In this document: piece after piece, positions 89-50,997 of the stretch
How the letters are laid out: each line of letters opens with the position of its first letter
Numbering within the stretch: the stretch's first letter is position 1
From: Agromyces salentinus
GTDB taxonomy: Bacteria > Actinomycetota > Actinomycetes > Actinomycetales > Microbacteriaceae
DNA length: 64,000 nucleotides
Assembly: GCF_009749395.1 (NCBI RefSeq)
Contig: NZ_WBIR01000016.1
Location: forward strand, 1 to 64,000
Direction of reading: 5' to 3'
The notes under the pieces: model-generated
Told to the model about the DNA's origin: nothing
Database searches by the model: none
The model's input: the letters and a program-made list of their open reading frames with translations, nothing else
Program-made: the position numbers and the translations under genes

Positions 89-2086
89 TCAGGCGAGACG
101 CGGGGTGCGCGGCGGCTCGGTCCGCCGGTGGCCGGTCCCCTCGAAGGCGGCGGCCAGGCGCAGCAGCGTCGTGTCGTCGTAGGCACGGCCCGCGAACGTC
201 AGTCCGACCGGCATCCGGATGTCGGCCATCGTGCCCATCGGCACCGTCACCGTCGGGATGCCGAGATGCCGCGGCACGAGGTTGCCGTTCGCCACCCAGA
301 CGCCGTTGCGCCAGCCGAGGTCGGCGGATGCCTCGTTCACGTCCATGTCCGCGGGGCCGACGTCGGCGACGGCCGGGAACACGACCGCGTCGAGTCCGAG
401 CCCGTCCATCCACGCCTCGAGGTCGACCCGGCGGGTCTCCTCGAGTCCCCGGAGGCCGTCCTCGAGCTCGGGCATGTCGTCGAGCGTCGCGCCGGGGTGC
501 GCGCGCGCCCAGTCCGGGTACTCGGCGATGTCGTCGTCGAAGCCCGTGTACCGGTCGGGCAGCGCGCCCTCGGGGTGCGGGAAGATGCGGGCGCCGTCGA
601 CGTCGGCGAGGGCCCGCAGCGCGGGGTCGCCGTTGGCGTCGAGGAAGTCGTTCCACGACCAGGCCGAGAGGTCGACGATCTCGCGCCGCAGGTACTCCGG
701 CGCGACGAGTCCACGCGTCGCGATCGTCGGCGTCCCCGGGCGGTCGCCCTCGTAGTTGGACACCACCGGGAAGTCGACGAGCACGACCTCGGCGCCCGCC
801 GCCTCGAGGTCGCGGCGCGCGGCCTCCCAGAGGTCGAGGACCGTCGCCCTCGTCCGGATGCGCTGCCCGGTGGGCCCGCCTATGCCGGGCCTGCGCCCGG
901 GCTCGGCCGTGCCCGCCTCGGGGTCGGCGTCGACGTACATGCGCGGCACGCCGAAGCGTCGCCCGGCGAGCACGGCGCGAGCGACCGCAGGTGGTTCGGC
1001 GGCGGCATCCGGCTCGCCCGCGGCATCCGCTTCGCCCGCGGCATCCGCCCCCAGCAGGGCGACGTACGAGTCGGGGCGCACGTCGGAGGATGCGGGGATC
1101 TCGACCCAGGGCTGGACGCGCCAGAAGTCGCCGCGCGTCTCGGGGTCGTCGGCGACGATGACGTCGAGCACCTCGAGCAGGTCGGCCATGGTGCGCGTGT
1201 GCGGCACGACGACGTCCATGGTCGGCACGAGGGGCCAGTTGCCGCGCACCGAGATCACGCCGCGCGAGGGCGTGTAGGCGCAGAGCGCGTTGTTGGACGC
1301 CGGGGCGCGGCCGGACGACCACGTCTCCTCGCCGAGGCCGAACGCCGCGAACGACGCCGCGGTCGCCGTGCCGGAGCCGTTGGAGGAGCCCGAGCCGAAC
1401 GCGGCCGTGAGGTACGCCGCGTTGTACGGGCTCTCGGCGCGGCCGTAGACGCCGCGCTGCATGCCGCCGTTCGCCATCGGCGGCATGTTCGTGAGCCCGA
1501 TGAGCACGGCGCCAGCATCGCGCAGGCGCTCGATCGTGAAGGCGTCGCGCTGCGCGACGAGGTGCTCGAACGCGGGCGATCCGGCGGCGGCGGTCAGGCC
1601 GCGCGCGAGGTAGCTGTCCTTCGCGGTGTACGGGATGCCGTCGAGCGGGCCGCGCACGCGCCCCGCCGCCCTGCGCTCATCGGAGGCGAGCGCGTCGGCC
1701 CGAGCTTCCGGGTTCATCACGACGACGGCGTTGAGCGCGGTGTCCGTCTCGGGCGCGTCGTACGCGGCGATGCGCGCGAGGTAGGCGTCGAGCAGCCCGA
1801 CCGCGGTGACGCGCCCAGTCTCGAGCGCGGCGCGGAGGTCGGCGATCGACGCCTCGACGACGTCGAACCCGCTCCCCGGCGGTCGAGTGGGCAGCGACGC
1901 AGGAGCAGCCCCCGGCGGTCGAGTAGGCAGCGACGCAGGAGCAGCCCCCGGCGGTCGAGTAGGCAGCGACGTAGGAGCAGCCCCCGGGGGTCGAGTAGGC
2001 AGCGACGCAGGAGCAGCCGTATCGAGACCCCCCTCCAGGGGGTCTCGAGACGCTTCGCTCCTCGACCGCCGGGACTCCTCCGTCAT
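89..2086 (-). CDS. Amidase-signature family hydrolase with repeat-expanded N-terminus
   Basis: This 665-residue enzyme of the amidase signature family should hydrolyse a C-N amide-type bond. The Ser-cisSer-Lys triad can be placed: Lys156 in YTAKDSY, the cis-Ser at Ser234/235 in GSGSSNGSG, and the likely nucleophile Ser258 in ETWSSGRAPAS. The usual TDTGGSIR block is replaced by EETWSSGR, so this is a divergent subfamily and the substrate is unknown. Residues 6-71 come from a palindromic repeat element carrying four 12-residue repeats (SLPTRPPGAAPA), so conserved sequence starts only near residue 72. A loop of three short DAAGE-type repeats (about residues 345-365) is also non-conserved. The ATG overlaps the stop of the deiminase gene in ATGA, making this the last gene of a permease-deiminase-amidase operon. 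The family is clear; the reaction is inferred from context only. Confidence 0.88.
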   Translation of the reverse strand: MTEESRRSRSEASRDPLEGGLDTAAPASLPTRPPGAAPTSLPTRPPGAAPASLPTRPPGAAPASLPTRPPGSGFDVVEASIADLRAALETGRVTAVGLLDAYLARIAAYDAPETDTALNAVVVMNPEARADALASDERRAAGRVRGPLDGIPYTAKDSYLARGLTAAAGSPAFEHLVAQRDAFTIERLRDAGAVLIGLTNMPPMANGGMQRGVYGRAESPYNAAYLTAAFGSGSSNGSGTATAASFAAFGLGEETWSSGRAPASNNALCAYTPSRGVISVRGNWPLVPTMDVVVPHTRTMADLLEVLDVIVADDPETRGDFWRVQPWVEIPASSDVRPDSYVALLGADAAGEADAAGEPDAAAEPPAVARAVLAGRRFGVPRMYVDADPEAGTAEPGRRPGIGGPTGQRIRTRATVLDLWEAARRDLEAAGAEVVLVDFPVVSNYEGDRPGTPTIATRGLVAPEYLRREIVDLSAWSWNDFLDANGDPALRALADVDGARIFPHPEGALPDRYTGFDDDIAEYPDWARAHPGATLDDMPELEDGLRGLEETRRVDLEAWMDGLGLDAVVFPAVADVGPADMDVNEASADLGWRNGVWVANGNLVPRHLGIPTVTVPMGTMADIRMPVGLTFAGRAYDDTTLLRLAAAFEGTGHRRTEPPRTPRLA
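1874..2070 (-). repeat. Palindromic coding repeat element, copy A1, with four 36-bp tandem units
   Basis: Four 36-bp units (1874-1909, 1910-1945, 1946-1981, 1982-2017), each with the core GGCGGTCGAGTAGGC, are followed by a palindrome. Its arms are 2018-2032 and 2038-2052 (14 of 15 bases pair), and it ends in CTCGACCGCC at 2061-2070. The whole element lies inside the amidase coding sequence and stays open on the minus strand, encoding GLDT followed by SLPTRPPGAAPA repeats. The same cores occur in copies at 35.4, 37.2 and 50.9 kb. Confidence 0.9.
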
Positions 2087-34276: not shown

Positions 34277-35743
34277 TCAGACGTCGTAGTCGACGCTGAC
34301 GCGATCGGAGGTCGGGTGCGACTGGCAGGTGAGCACGTACCCGCGCTCGAGCTCGTCGGGCTCGAGCGCGTAGTTCTCGGTCATCGTCACATCGCCGTCG
34401 ATGACCCTCGCCCGGCACGTGCCGCACACGCCGCCCGCGCACGCGAACGGCACGTCGGGCCGGACGCGCAGCGCCGCGTTGAGGATCGACTCGTTCGCCG
34501 ACACCGGGCTCTCCACGCTCGAGGACTGCCCGTCGAGCGTGAACTCGATCGCGAACGTGCGCTCGCCCTGGCGCACCTCGACCGGGCGCCCGTGGCGGGG
34601 CTCGACGCGGTCGGCGTCCGTCGTGAAGAGCTCGTATCGCACGTGCTCGGCGGGCACCCCGCGTTCGGCGAGGGTGTCGCGCGCGAGCTGCACGAGCTCG
34701 AACGGCCCGCAGAGGAACCACTCGTCGACCGTCTCCGGGCGGATGAGCACGTCGAGCATCGTCCCGAGCTTCTCGGCGTCGATGCGCCCCGACAGCAGCG
34801 GCGCCGTGCGCTGCTCGCGCGAGAGCACGTGGTGCAGCGCGAGCCTCGACGGGTAGCGGTCCTTCAGCTCCGCGAGCTCCTCGAGGAACATCACGTCGAG
34901 CGTCGAGCGGTTCGTGTAGACGAGCTCGAACTCGGATGTCGCGGAGCGGGCCAGCACCGTCTGCGCGAGCGCCATGAGCGGGGTGATGCCCGACCCGGCG
35001 GCGATGGCCACGATGTGCTTGCCGTCGAGTTCGTCGAGCGTGGACGTGAAGGTGCCCTGCGGGCTCATCACGTCGAGGGCATCGCCCGCCTTGAGCTCGG
35101 AGTTCGCCCACGAGGAGAACACCCCGCCGAGGTCGCGCTTGATGCCGACCGAGATCGTACCCGTGCCATCCGCCGCCCGCTCGGGCGGTCGGCAGATCGA
35201 GTAGCTGCGGCGGCGTTCGTGCCCCTCGAGCTCGGCGCGGAGCGCCACGTACTGGCCCGGCTGGTAGGCGTACTCGTCGGCGAGCTCGGCGGGCACCGCG
35301 AAGGTCACCTCGACGGCGTCGGCCGTCAGTGGGCGCACCTCGGCGACCTCGAGCCGGTGGAATCGGGCCCGACGACGCGTGGTCGCCTCCGGCGTGGTCG
35401 CGGCCTCGCCGCCGACGGTGGCGGCGAGAAAGGCCTCGGCCGCCTTCTCCGGCGGTCGAGGAGCCGACGAGGGAGCCCTCTCCTCCGGCGGTCGAGTAGC
35501 CGACGAAGAAGCCCTCTCCTCCGGCGGTCGAGTAGCCGACGAAGAAGCCCTCTCCTCCGGCGGTCGAGGAGCCGACGAAGAAGCCATCTTCTCCGGCGGT
35601 CGAGTAGCCGACGAAGGCGCCGCCTTCTCCGGCGGTCGAGTAGCCGACGAAGGAGGCGTATCGAGACCATCCAGCACGGGGTCCCGGTACGGCGCCGACG
35701 CGCCTGCTCGACCGCCGAGGGAACCGAGGTTGCGCGCGGCCAT
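34277..35743 (-). CDS. paaE: Phenylacetyl-CoA epoxidase reductase subunit PaaE with repeat insertion
   Basis: This 488-residue NADPH-dependent reductase delivers electrons to the PaaA di-iron centre. The conserved part begins near residue 125: FAD domain (RRSYSICRPPE), NAD(P) domain (IVAIAAGSGITPLMAL, EWFLCGPFELV) and a C-terminal plant-type 2Fe-2S domain with CAGGVCGTC and a final Cys in LTCQSHP. Typical PaaE is about 360 residues. The extra 110 N-terminal residues are mostly a palindromic element (about residues 10-98) read as six repeats of the type SSATRPPEERA. The ATG overlaps the paaD stop by one base (TGATG). Confidence 0.92.
   Translation of the reverse strand: MAARNLGSLGGRAGASAPYRDPVLDGLDTPPSSATRPPEKAAPSSATRPPEKMASSSAPRPPEERASSSATRPPEERASSSATRPPEERAPSSAPRPPEKAAEAFLAATVGGEAATTPEATTRRRARFHRLEVAEVRPLTADAVEVTFAVPAELADEYAYQPGQYVALRAELEGHERRRSYSICRPPERAADGTGTISVGIKRDLGGVFSSWANSELKAGDALDVMSPQGTFTSTLDELDGKHIVAIAAGSGITPLMALAQTVLARSATSEFELVYTNRSTLDVMFLEELAELKDRYPSRLALHHVLSREQRTAPLLSGRIDAEKLGTMLDVLIRPETVDEWFLCGPFELVQLARDTLAERGVPAEHVRYELFTTDADRVEPRHGRPVEVRQGERTFAIEFTLDGQSSSVESPVSANESILNAALRVRPDVPFACAGGVCGTCRARVIDGDVTMTENYALEPDELERGYVLTCQSHPTSDRVSVDYDV
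35448..35716 (-). repeat. Palindromic coding repeat element, copy A2, with six 36-bp tandem units
   Basis: Six 36-bp units begin at 35448, 35484, 35520, 35556, 35592 and 35628, each with TCCGGCGGTCGAG followed by TAGCCGACGAAG or a variant. The array ends in GCGTATCGAGACC near 35656-35668, and a decayed second arm with CTCGACCGCC stands at 35707-35716. It lies entirely within the paaE coding sequence and is open on the minus strand, encoding GLDTPPSSATRPPE and repeats of it. Confidence 0.9.
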
Positions 35744-36324
35744 CAGAGCACCTTGAAGTAGTCGAAGGGCTCGAGGCAGTCGCGGCACTCGTAGAGCGCC
35801 TTGCACGAGGTCGAGCCGAAGCGGGCGAGTTCACGGGTGTTCAGCGAGTCGCAGCGCGGGCACTTGACCGCGAGCTGCACGCGCACGGGCCCGGCGTCGC
35901 GCGCCGCGGCGCGACCCGACGGGGCCTGGATGCCGTACCGGCGGAGCTTCTCCTTGCCCGCCTCGCTCATCCAGTCCGTCGTCCACGCCGGCGAGAGCAC
36001 GAGGTCGACCTGCACGCGCTCGTAGCCGGCGTGGGTGAGCGCGAGCGTCACGTCGTCGCGCATCGCGTCGAGCGCGGGGCATCCGCTGTAGGTGGGGGTG
36101 AGCTGCACCCGCACGAGCCCGTCGTCCTCGACGGACGCCGTGCGGAGCACGCCGAGGTCCTCGATCGTGAGCACCGGGATCTCGGGGTCGGTCACGGTCG
36201 CCGCGACCTCCCAGACCTGCAGGTCGGCCGGCCGGACCGGGCGCTGGGCGCTGGTTTCGGGATGAGCGGATGTCGCGCGCGCGGCGTCGACCGCCACGGA
36301 CCGGACATCGGCCACCGCGGTCAC
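35743..36324 (-). CDS. paaD: PaaD, epoxidase maturation protein (MIP18-like)
   Basis: This 193-residue protein has the PaaD/DUF59 domain (VWEVAATVTDPEIPVLTIEDLGVLRTASVEDDG, then LTPTYSGCPALDAM with the conserved Cys). A C-terminal zinc ribbon has CPRC (VKCPRCDS) and YECRDCLEPFDYFKVL. It is thought to assist iron-sulfur or di-iron maturation of the epoxidase. GTG at 36324 overlaps the paaC stop (GTGA); a GTG one codon earlier is equally possible. The first 25 residues are variable. Confidence 0.92.
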   Translation of the reverse strand: MTAVADVRSVAVDAARATSAHPETSAQRPVRPADLQVWEVAATVTDPEIPVLTIEDLGVLRTASVEDDGLVRVQLTPTYSGCPALDAMRDDVTLALTHAGYERVQVDLVLSPAWTTDWMSEAGKEKLRRYGIQAPSGRAAARDAGPVRVQLAVKCPRCDSLNTRELARFGSTSCKALYECRDCLEPFDYFKVL

Positions 36325-37274
36325 CACGAGGCCCCCGGGTGCTGGCGGGCCAGCACCTGCATCTCGGCGAGGAGCGGCCCGAGGTGCTCGGTGTGCCGGC
36401 CCTCGCGGCCGCCACCGGATGCGGTGAACGCGGTACGGCCGGTGGGCCGCTCGAGCTGCGCCTCGGCGAAGACGGCGTCGACGGCGGCCTCGAAGGCCGG
36501 ACGCAGCGTCGACGGCAGCACGGCGACGCCGTCTGCGGCCAGTCGCTCGACGAGCGCGTCGTCGTCGAAGAGCTCGTCGACGTACGGCCAGGTGTCGGTC
36601 ACCGCCACGATCATGCGGCGACGGGACTCGTCGGTGCCGCCCGCGAGGCGGAGCACCCACTGCACGGCGTGGTCGCGGTGGTAGTCGACCTCCTTGACGG
36701 ACTTGGCCGCGATGGCCGCGATGGTCGCATCGGTCGATGTCTCGAGGGCCCCGTACAGCTCGTACAGGTACAGCGAGGCGACGAGCTGGCGCGCGATGGT
36801 GTGCGCGAAGTCGCCGTTGGGCTGTTCGAAGAGCCAGGCGTTGCGGAACTCGGGCTCGTCGCGCCAGTAGGCGAGGTCGTCTTCACTGCGGCCGGTCGCC
36901 GTGCCCGCGTAGTGCAGGAGCGAGCGCGCGTGCCCGATGAGGTCGAGGCCGATGTTGCCGAGCGCGACGTCCTCCTCGAGCTCGGGGGCGCGCGTGATCC
37001 ACATGCCGAGCTGCTGGGCGAGCACGAGGGCGTCGTCGCCGAGGCGCAGCGCGTACTCCGCGGCATCCGCATCGGCGACCCGGCCGGCGCCGGTGATGCC
37101 CGCGCCGGCGAGCTCCTCGGCGAGCGCGACCTCGTCGACCGTGACGGAGCCGTGCGCGCCGTGCGCATCGTCTGGCGATCGAGTAGCCGACGAAGGAGGC
37201 GTATCGAGATCCTGATGCGAGGTCTCGATACGCTCGCTGGCGCTCGCTACTCGACCGCCGGTCTCGGCGCTCAC
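36321..37274 (-). CDS. paaC: Phenylacetyl-CoA epoxidase subunit PaaC
   Basis: This 317-residue helical structural subunit pairs with PaaA in the multicomponent epoxidase. Family blocks are ALRLGDDALVLAQQLGMWITRAPELEEDVALGNIGLDLIGHAR, LLHYAG, FRNAWLFEQPNGDFAHTIARQ and VKEVDYHRDHAVQWVLRLAGGTDES. It starts at a GTG overlapping the paaB stop. Residues 6-34 (containing ERIETS and DLDTPPSSATRSPDD) are encoded by a complete palindromic element and are not part of the family. Confidence 0.92.
   Translation of the reverse strand: MSAETGGRVASASERIETSHQDLDTPPSSATRSPDDAHGAHGSVTVDEVALAEELAGAGITGAGRVADADAAEYALRLGDDALVLAQQLGMWITRAPELEEDVALGNIGLDLIGHARSLLHYAGTATGRSEDDLAYWRDEPEFRNAWLFEQPNGDFAHTIARQLVASLYLYELYGALETSTDATIAAIAAKSVKEVDYHRDHAVQWVLRLAGGTDESRRRMIVAVTDTWPYVDELFDDDALVERLAADGVAVLPSTLRPAFEAAVDAVFAEAQLERPTGRTAFTASGGGREGRHTEHLGPLLAEMQVLARQHPGASW
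37174..37259 (-). repeat. Palindromic coding repeat element, copy A3 (complete single copy)
   Basis: This 86-nt inverted repeat lies in the 5-prime part of paaC. One arm runs from GGCGATCGAGTAGC to GCGTATCGAGATC, the other from GGTCTCGATACGC to GCTACTCGACCGCC, with a short loop at about 37213-37218. It is open in the paaC frame. This is the clearest parental form of the family, without tandem expansion. Confidence 0.9.
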
Positions 37275-50094: not shown

Positions 50095-50997
50095 TCACGA
50101 GGCGTCCCAGGTGTAGAAGCCCTGCCCGGTCTTGCGACCGAGGCTGCCCTCGGCGACCATGCGCCGCAGGAGGGCGGGCGGCGCGAACCGTTCGCCGAGG
50201 TTCGTCGCGAGGTACTCGGCGATGCCGAGCCGCACGTCGAGGCCGACGAGGTCGGTGAGCCGCAACGGGCCGACCGGATGCTTGTAGCCGAGCGTCATCG
50301 CCCGGTCGATGTCCTCGGCACTGGCGACGCCCTCCTCGAGCATGCGGATCGCCTCGAGCCCGAGGGCGACCCCGAGGCGCGATGACGCGAAGCCGGGAGC
50401 GTCCGCGACGACGATGGGCGTCTTGCCGATGGCGGCGACCCAGTCGCGAGCCTCGTCGACGAGCGGCGCCTCGGTGGCGCCGCCGCGCACGACCTCGACG
50501 AGGGTGGAGGCCGGTACCGGATTGAAGAAGTGCATCCCGAGGAAGCGCGACGGCCGGTCGAGGAGGGCCGCGAGCTCGTCGATCGAGATGGACGACGTGT
50601 TCGACGCGAGCGCGGCGCCGTCGCCGAGGACCGCCTCGACCCGGGTGAGGGCGTCGATCTTCAGCTCGAGCTGCTCGGGCACGGCCTCGACGACGAGCCC
50701 GCAACCGGCGAAGGACGCCACGTCCGTGCTGGTGCCGAAGCGGGCGGCGATGACCTCGGCGCCCTCGTCGGCGGTGCCGCGGTCGACGGATGCCGCGACG
50801 GACTCGAGGACCCGCGTCGACGCGGCGGCCGCGGCATCCGCGTCCCGTTCGACGACCGTCACGCGGGAGCCCGCGAGCAGGAAGGCGTGCGCGATGCCCG
50901 CGCCCATGCGCCCGCCGCCGAGCACGCCGACCGCGGACGGCGCACCGCTGGCGACGCTCGAGGAGCGCGACGTATCGAGACCCCGCGATGCGTTCAC
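50095..50997 (-). CDS. paaH: PaaH, 3-hydroxyacyl-CoA dehydrogenase
   Basis: This 300-residue NAD-dependent dehydrogenase oxidises 3-hydroxyadipyl-CoA. The Rossmann motif GVLGGGRMGAGIAHAF, the NTSSISIDELA block with catalytic Ser, and HFFNPVP with the catalytic His are all present; the C-terminal helical domain ends GRKTGQGFYTWD. The start is GTG overlapping the paaF stop (GTGA). Residues 4-15 (SRGLDTSRSSSV) derive from a truncated palindromic element and precede the normal N-terminus near residue 22. Confidence 0.93.
   Translation of the reverse strand: MNASRGLDTSRSSSVASGAPSAVGVLGGGRMGAGIAHAFLLAGSRVTVVERDADAAAAASTRVLESVAASVDRGTADEGAEVIAARFGTSTDVASFAGCGLVVEAVPEQLELKIDALTRVEAVLGDGAALASNTSSISIDELAALLDRPSRFLGMHFFNPVPASTLVEVVRGGATEAPLVDEARDWVAAIGKTPIVVADAPGFASSRLGVALGLEAIRMLEEGVASAEDIDRAMTLGYKHPVGPLRLTDLVGLDVRLGIAEYLATNLGERFAPPALLRRMVAEGSLGRKTGQGFYTWDAS
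50955..50985 (-). repeat. Palindromic coding repeat element, copy A4 (one arm only)
   Basis: CTCGAGGAGCGCGACG followed by TATCGAGACC is a single arm of the element seen at 2.0, 35.6 and 37.2 kb. It is read in the same frame (GLDT) within the first codons of paaH. The second arm is missing. Confidence 0.65.

Follow-up and report, generated by a model that had tools for sequence, protein, structure and literature searches.

Our analysis covers a stretch of 64,000 nt of the Agromyces salentinus genome (positions 1 to 64,000 of contig NZ_WBIR01000016.1), hereafter called the window, in which four genes, encoding an amidase, PaaE, PaaC and PaaH, carry copies of a palindromic element in their 5' coding parts. 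The relevant features, all on the minus strand, are:

89..2086, minus strand: amidase gene (PF01425), whose ATG overlaps the upstream stop codon (ATGA)
1866..2029, minus strand: in-frame tandem array with a 36-nt period in the amidase gene, built of PTRPPGAAPASL units
1989-2029, minus strand: complete element of the amidase array
2041..2067, minus strand: second palindrome in the amidase gene, GGTCTCGAGACG...CTCGACC, read RSRSEASRDP
34277..35743, minus strand: paaE (FAD/NAD/2Fe-2S oxidoreductase), whose ATG overlaps the paaD stop codon (TGATG)
35441..35668, minus strand: 36-nt in-frame tandem array in paaE derived from the element, with 12-aa units, e.g. SSATRPPEERAS
35634-35668, minus strand: complete element of the paaE array
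35679..35713, minus strand: degenerate further copy in paaE, GRAGASAPYRDP, recognised by reading the sequence and missed by the patterns for intact elements
36321..37274, minus strand: paaC (PF05138), whose GTG start overlaps the paaB stop codon (GTGA)
37221..37256, minus strand: palindromic element of 36 nt within the paaC coding sequence, read GRVASASERIET
37177..37211, minus strand: second palindromic element, of 35 nt, in paaC codons, inverted relative to the first and read DLDTPPSSATRS
50095..50997, minus strand: paaH (3-hydroxyacyl-CoA dehydrogenase, PF02737/PF00725), whose GTG overlaps the upstream stop codon
50971..50982, minus strand: single element arm (GLDT) in paaH, the remainder being degenerate

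The two palindromes in paaC form an inverted pair (37177-37211 and 37221-37256) where the initial annotation had placed the element, and its further observations that a frame giving GLDT or DLDT is found in all four genes, followed in three by TRPP or TRSP, and that the four genes start in an overlap of 1 or 4 nt with the upstream stop codon were confirmed. Other parts of this description need refinement. The same palindrome is indeed present in the four genes, but the inserts in the amidase gene and in paaE are 36-nt (12-codon) tandem arrays and not single elements, and paaH contains only one arm followed by a degenerate remainder. Similarly, the left arm is read in the frame described, but the amidase gene and paaC each hold a second, inverted copy in another frame. 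One unit of the paaE array contains an ATG near position 35587.

A dispersed palindrome with covarying arms and stem

The element is a REP-like palindrome with the general form GG(C/T)GGTCGAGTAG-(variable stem)-CGTATCGAGACC. Within the window its arm GGTCTCGATACG occurs six times with at most one mismatch, compared with a mean of 0.62 and a maximum of 3 in 100 shuffled sequences. From all loci collected we obtained 321 copies distinct in their sequence context and related by descent, and in 296 of them the 4-nt arms located outside GAG...CGA pair with each other, whereas re-dealing the partners yields 205 on average and 219 at most. Where both arms are changed, complementarity is kept in 54 of 57 copies (GATC/GATC, GGTT/AACC and others). 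The stem behaves in the same way, with a mean of 3.94 closing Watson-Crick pairs in 186 distinct cores compared to 0.56 after shuffling. The element is a genuine repeat, and both its arms and its stem covary. The GTAG beside the stem is constant, as set by the search pattern, and lies inside the covarying outer arms (GGTC/GACC, GATC/GATC, GGTT/AACC); in some coding copies it is replaced by GGAG. Free folding of single strands gave mixed results for four elements (z values of -2.87, +0.84, -1.45 and +1.11), and the evidence for a hairpin is therefore the covariation and not the folding energy. No match to Rfam was detected anywhere in the window. A shorter palindrome type, GAGC(C/T)TGTCGA, follows the same plan, its arms pairing in 23 of 31 cases compared to 7.6 after re-dealing. 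Repeats similar to this shorter type presumably exist in other bacteria; a literature search for one form of it retrieved no paper.

The A. salentinus genome (4.23 Mb, 40 contigs), which was searched by pattern and then read in 24 stretches, contains one arm in exact form 66 times (1 for the reversed control) and 43 full copies with both arms (reversed-pattern control: 0); the pattern for adjacent copies matched at only two places. As a palindrome of 20-40 nt with a covarying stem and many copies per genome (43 in A. salentinus, with 186 distinct cores overall), the element agrees with GTAG REPs in this respect. The element was also found in 23 of 36 relatives of the same genus, with 296 copies in the richest and 187 in another, and in 77 genomes of a family sample of 299, with up to 631 copies; a search of 23 further genomes from the order detected none. 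Among the matches listed are genomes of Agromyces, Rathayibacter, Agreia, Cryobacterium, Nocardioides, Gordonia and other actinobacteria as well as Anaerolineales/Chloroflexi assemblies. The paa region itself shows 83% identity to Agromyces cavernae over 3.4 kb, and relatives of the same genus reach 80-86%.

Copies in genes, linkers and spacers

The copies in the A. salentinus genome form 40 clusters, 11 of which lie in nine genes and 25 between genes, some of them touching a gene end; the remaining ones are two ambiguous N-terminal cases (L019 NUDIX and L021) and two solitary arms (L004, L008). Two of the 40 clusters, L010 and L013, appear to represent one piece of DNA found at the ends of two contigs and thus counted twice: the beginning of C13 looks identical, in opposite orientation, to a part of C25, perhaps due to an assembly break at a repeat. 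An automatic classifier assigned only 1 of 45 copies in this genome and none of 156 in the named loci to the class 'internal', with 6 and 7 more, respectively, open to the downstream gene. Because neighbouring copies (dimers, arrays) were judged to spoil the flank scores of this classifier, the census rests on gene-by-gene reading.

According to Pfam, the nine host genes encode the amidase, PaaE, PaaC, PaaH, a third Clp ATPase, a BPD permease, a monooxygenase, an IucA/IucC enzyme and a zinc-ribbon protein, and the copies would thus be in frame in nine unrelated genes of one genome, a feature that characterises the Rickettsia palindromic elements (RPEs). The placement at N-termini alone, as described initially, did not hold, as copies are also located in a linker of the Clp ATPase, in the ABC permease (BPD; near residue 280, beyond the best Pfam match at 81-248), in the middle of the zinc-ribbon protein (four copies between two ribbon matches, in a region with a poor codon-use score) and at the C-terminus of the lysine/ornithine monooxygenase (four 33-nt repeats). 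In the IucA/IucC enzyme the copy lies in the N-terminal part and is bordered on both sides by host-like codons. At two loci of this genome (L009, L025) a plausible start codon is found downstream of the element. The initial annotation had held that mainly intergenic copies, together with coding copies in random frames, would speak against translation; the clusters are indeed mainly intergenic (25 of 40), but the frames of the coding copies are not random.

In other genomes, of 119 copies among the matches listed (80 loci), a gene finder assigned 14 to the interior of called genes, four to gene edges and 101 to spacers, and we positioned the 14 putative coding copies by Pfam matches, gene-finder calls and reading. 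In Agromyces bracchium (L140:1382-7478) five copies are located right behind the starts of three neighbouring genes for a tetrapyrrole methylase, an EF-Tu-like GTPase (probably CysN) and a PAPS-reductase-domain protein (probably CysD), which parallels the paa operon of the window. A Nocardioides helicase contains one copy between its DEAD and Helicase_C matches, and single copies are found behind an aldehyde dehydrogenase match, behind a serine hydrolase (PF00144) match and, in a histidine kinase, N-terminal to the kinase domain. Two UvrD helicases of Anaerolineales (L132:729-3177, L094:5162-7694) have two in-frame copies each, at least two of these four being inside domain matches, and in L167 one copy falls within the LysR substrate domain match of a regulator. 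We therefore rejected the notion that coding copies occur in linkers and tails only, given the domain-internal copies in L167, L094 and L132.

The third Clp ATPase offers the most detailed view of such insertions. In the A. salentinus protein the M/D2 linker, which separates the UVR match from the AAA_2 match, is occupied by the element around residues 500-525, and a half copy is present around residue 185, in the interval from Clp_N to AAA. Among its orthologues, taken as the best 30 of 37 genus genomes with a close match, nine contain a total of 13 full elements of the GTAG type, as detected with a pattern fixed beforehand and not tuned on this gene. With a wider definition, to which GGAG and short types were added after inspection of the Clp linkers, 33 intact palindromes are found, of which the M/D2 linker holds 16, the N/D1 linker 11 and other parts six; 27 of the 33 thus lie in two linkers that make up 5,637 of 79,332 nt, and six in the remaining 73,695 nt, a count in which G036 is without a parsed M/D2 linker and some reading frames include an upstream extension. 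All six fall into a third variable region, flanked by the conserved segments EARLPA and ATITPS, and this region was recognised as a linker only from its inserts. The palindromes are clustered in three variable stretches of this protein, and several palindrome types occupy them. On a tree calculated without the linker columns, by a quick method and with several weak forks, the six carriers of a GTAG-type element in the M/D2 linker require six changes, gains and losses being indistinguishable. The matched region of the Clp locus of G019 (L224) contains a single TAA.

Evidence for in-frame reading of the coding copies

Translation of the elements in the amidase gene, paaE and paaC is well supported by comparison with orthologous sequences. 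No ATG, GTG or TTG is present between the element and the conserved domain in the amidase gene, paaC and paaH; the next start codon of the amidase gene is found only at about position 1720, inside the conserved part, and in paaE there is likewise none apart from the ATG inside the array. For PaaC and the amidase, as for Clp, the best 30 matches were compared. PaaC starts at the same overlap in all 30 loci, and 7-31 residues precede its conserved part, except in A. salentinus (43) and G015 (67); elements occupy the same place of paaC in G019 and A. cavernae. In the amidase the corresponding length is 7-21 residues in 26 of 30 loci, the others being G034 (26), G010 (47), G015 (54) and A. salentinus (79). 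In all loci but G005 (29 of 30) PaaE begins with MAARNLGS or a closely similar peptide; this includes L040 and L049, where the peptide is visible and the automatic start was placed too far upstream. This peptide is followed by a variable linker, which is longest in A. salentinus and G015, and then in most cases by AFLxSxVGG. Conserved coded segments thus flank the paaE insert on both sides.

Further evidence for in-frame reading comes from the arrays. The distance between neighbouring copies on the same strand is a multiple of three in 11 of 11 cases within genes and in five of 15 cases elsewhere, with coding labels assigned by hand and the 11 coding distances, which stem from four arrays, not being independent. 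This count excludes C13:53782/53824 (42 nt), the inclusion of which would change the non-coding value to six of 16, and C25:1985/2029, which is identical in sequence to C13:94/138. Together with the N-termini of the orthologues, this spacing agrees with the original proposal of a small, RPE-like palindromic repeat that is translated in an actinobacterium, and both lines of comparative evidence support reading in frame. Judged by host codon use, the element codons look non-coding, with scores of roughly -20 to -24 for every 20 codons of the arrays, and the scores of the domains are mostly positive.

Of the 55 intact palindromes in the genes examined, 47 belong to the main type, and these are read in the three frames 18, 7 and 2 times in one orientation and 13, 4 and 3 times in the other; the counts include copies shared by descent, which are hence not independent, so that P values for the frames, and likewise for the spacing above, are optimistic, and skip N-termini with a start placed more than 700 nt away (paaE of G036 and G010). 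The favoured peptides are GLDT and GRV/RIET. The single reading frame assumed initially was thus not found, and a strict rule that the element is always read as GLDT had to be discarded. The last frame, observed three times, contains a TAG in all 17 distinct GTAG copies of A. salentinus, so that only variants such as GGAG can be read in it. Hydrophobicity is highest for the rarest open frame, but the commonest frame is not the most hydrophilic one; we therefore rejected disorder as the sole cause of the frame bias.

In three paaC orthologues (L045, L046 and L036, from G003, G025 and G021, respectively) the position of the element in the N-terminus is taken by RPAQ, RQAQDG and RPEPVEG, peptides typical of a different palindrome type.

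Proposed spread of the element and relation to known repeats

The very likely explanation for these findings is a family of REP-like palindromes that has spread in Agromyces and other Microbacteriaceae and whose coding copies are filtered by selection. The element would be one member of this family of short palindromes; copies would arrive regardless of genes, and those that break a protein would be removed by selection. Surviving copies would keep the frame at sites where additional disordered residues are tolerated, i.e. directly behind a start that overlaps the upstream gene, in linkers between domains, at C-termini and, less often, in the interior of a domain. Within genes some copies might then grow as tandem arrays in whole codons, and others might decay, as the degenerate copies suggest. 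Both the movement of copies and their filtering are what we infer from the distribution described above.

Selection might also act on the repeats as peptides, with the host recruiting palindromes as ready-made linkers and using them to adjust how long or how charged the linkers of the Clp ATPase and the Paa enzymes are. The presence of several palindrome types in the same three variable stretches of Clp and the six changes needed for the six M/D2 carriers are in line with this scenario; we nevertheless regard it as unlikely, as 25 of 40 clusters are intergenic, which is expected for a neutral or selfish repeat subject to a selection filter, as the host genes are unrelated, and as the use of several frames results in unrelated peptides.

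Ordinary GTAG REPs are tied to REP-associated tyrosine transposases (RAYTs), as described by Di Nocera et al. (2013; PMC3733652), and we therefore chose PF01797 (Y1 REP transposase) as the target of our search for a mobiliser, which was confined to this Pfam family. The GTAG beside the stem, the high copy number, the inverted dimers and clusters and an occasional TAG stop codon of the element resemble the repeats described there. However, the REP-associated transposase whose presence the initial annotation had proposed to check was not found in the genus: PF01797 is represented in none of 37 genomes, A. salentinus included, with a positive result for the E. coli control. In the Microbacteriaceae sample it is present in three of 299 genomes, and all three have no elements, although 77 of 299 genomes do (both samples comprise 299 genomes, and the 23 handles listed agree). 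In addition, the GTAG appears to be enclosed by a larger palindrome whose outer arms covary, and not to form an unpaired end. Mobilisation of ordinary GTAG REPs by a RAYT is thus quite improbable. Spread by a divergent enzyme, by an enzyme that was subsequently lost, or by template-switch copying at hairpins is possible.

That the N-terminal copies are intergenic, with translation starting downstream and an upstream frame open by chance in GC-rich DNA, fits a caution of Di Nocera et al. (PMC3733652) that N-terminal intragenic REPs may be extragenic, as well as the aberrant codon use, the later starts at L009 and L025 and the ATG in the paaE array, but it is highly improbable in view of the lack of start codons between element and domain in the amidase gene, paaC and paaH, the element-free orthologues starting at the same overlap codon, the conserved peptide ahead of the paaE insert, the consistent spacing by multiples of three only in genes, and the Clp copies between conserved coding segments, for which the choice of start is irrelevant.

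The element resembles several known systems. To our knowledge, protein-coding palindromes are known chiefly from Rickettsia. RPEs are likewise short palindromic repeats found in frame in unrelated protein genes and in spacers; they belong to another phylum and presumably differ in sequence. As far as is known of RPEs, the use of several frames, the in-frame tandem arrays and the occurrence of several palindrome types in the same orthologous linkers across species set the element described here apart from them. With GTAG REPs, as portrayed by Di Nocera et al. (2013; PMC3733652), it shares the GTAG at the stem, covarying stems, inverted dimers and clusters, and also the mostly intergenic location with some copies within ORFs and the use of TAG as stop codon; it differs in the covariation of the outer arms beyond the tag and in its occurrence in a genus in which no RAYT (PF01797) was found. 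The main text of that paper mentions neither Actinobacteria nor Microbacterium. REPINs are also paired inverted palindromes that are dispersed in high copy number, but no partner transposase was detected for our element. Inverted repeats inside protein genes have also been reported for nematomorph mitochondria (PMC6649704), which are eukaryotic and whose repeats are far longer, reaching 284 bp. Literature searches for the arm sequence, for REP or RAYT together with actinobacteria or Microbacteriaceae, for in-frame palindromes and for Agromyces retrieved no description of this repeat, judged by titles and the beginnings of abstracts.

The element is of a known kind, the small translated palindromes, and is unusual in its recurrence in the same linkers, the several types per site, the tandem growth in codon steps and the lack of the expected transposase. 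More generally, and quite tentatively, self-spreading palindromes without a conventional REP transposase might be a source of linkers in Actinomycetota and probably Chloroflexota, with linkers such as those of the third Clp ATPase being rebuilt repeatedly and families of the plan arm-GAG...CGA-arm' competing for sites. As many actinobacterial species have been sequenced, it is possible to count, and to test, how often such repeats arrived independently in the same linker of orthologues, and the origin of new linkers becomes a countable question. High copy numbers of GTAG-type palindromes where the expected transposase is rare also reopen the question of how REPs spread.

At one locus (L006:2490-2496 and 2708-2714) two convergent genes stop on the TAG of the element's GTAG, their products ending in AVE and SVE, respectively; here the repeat supplies the stop codons.
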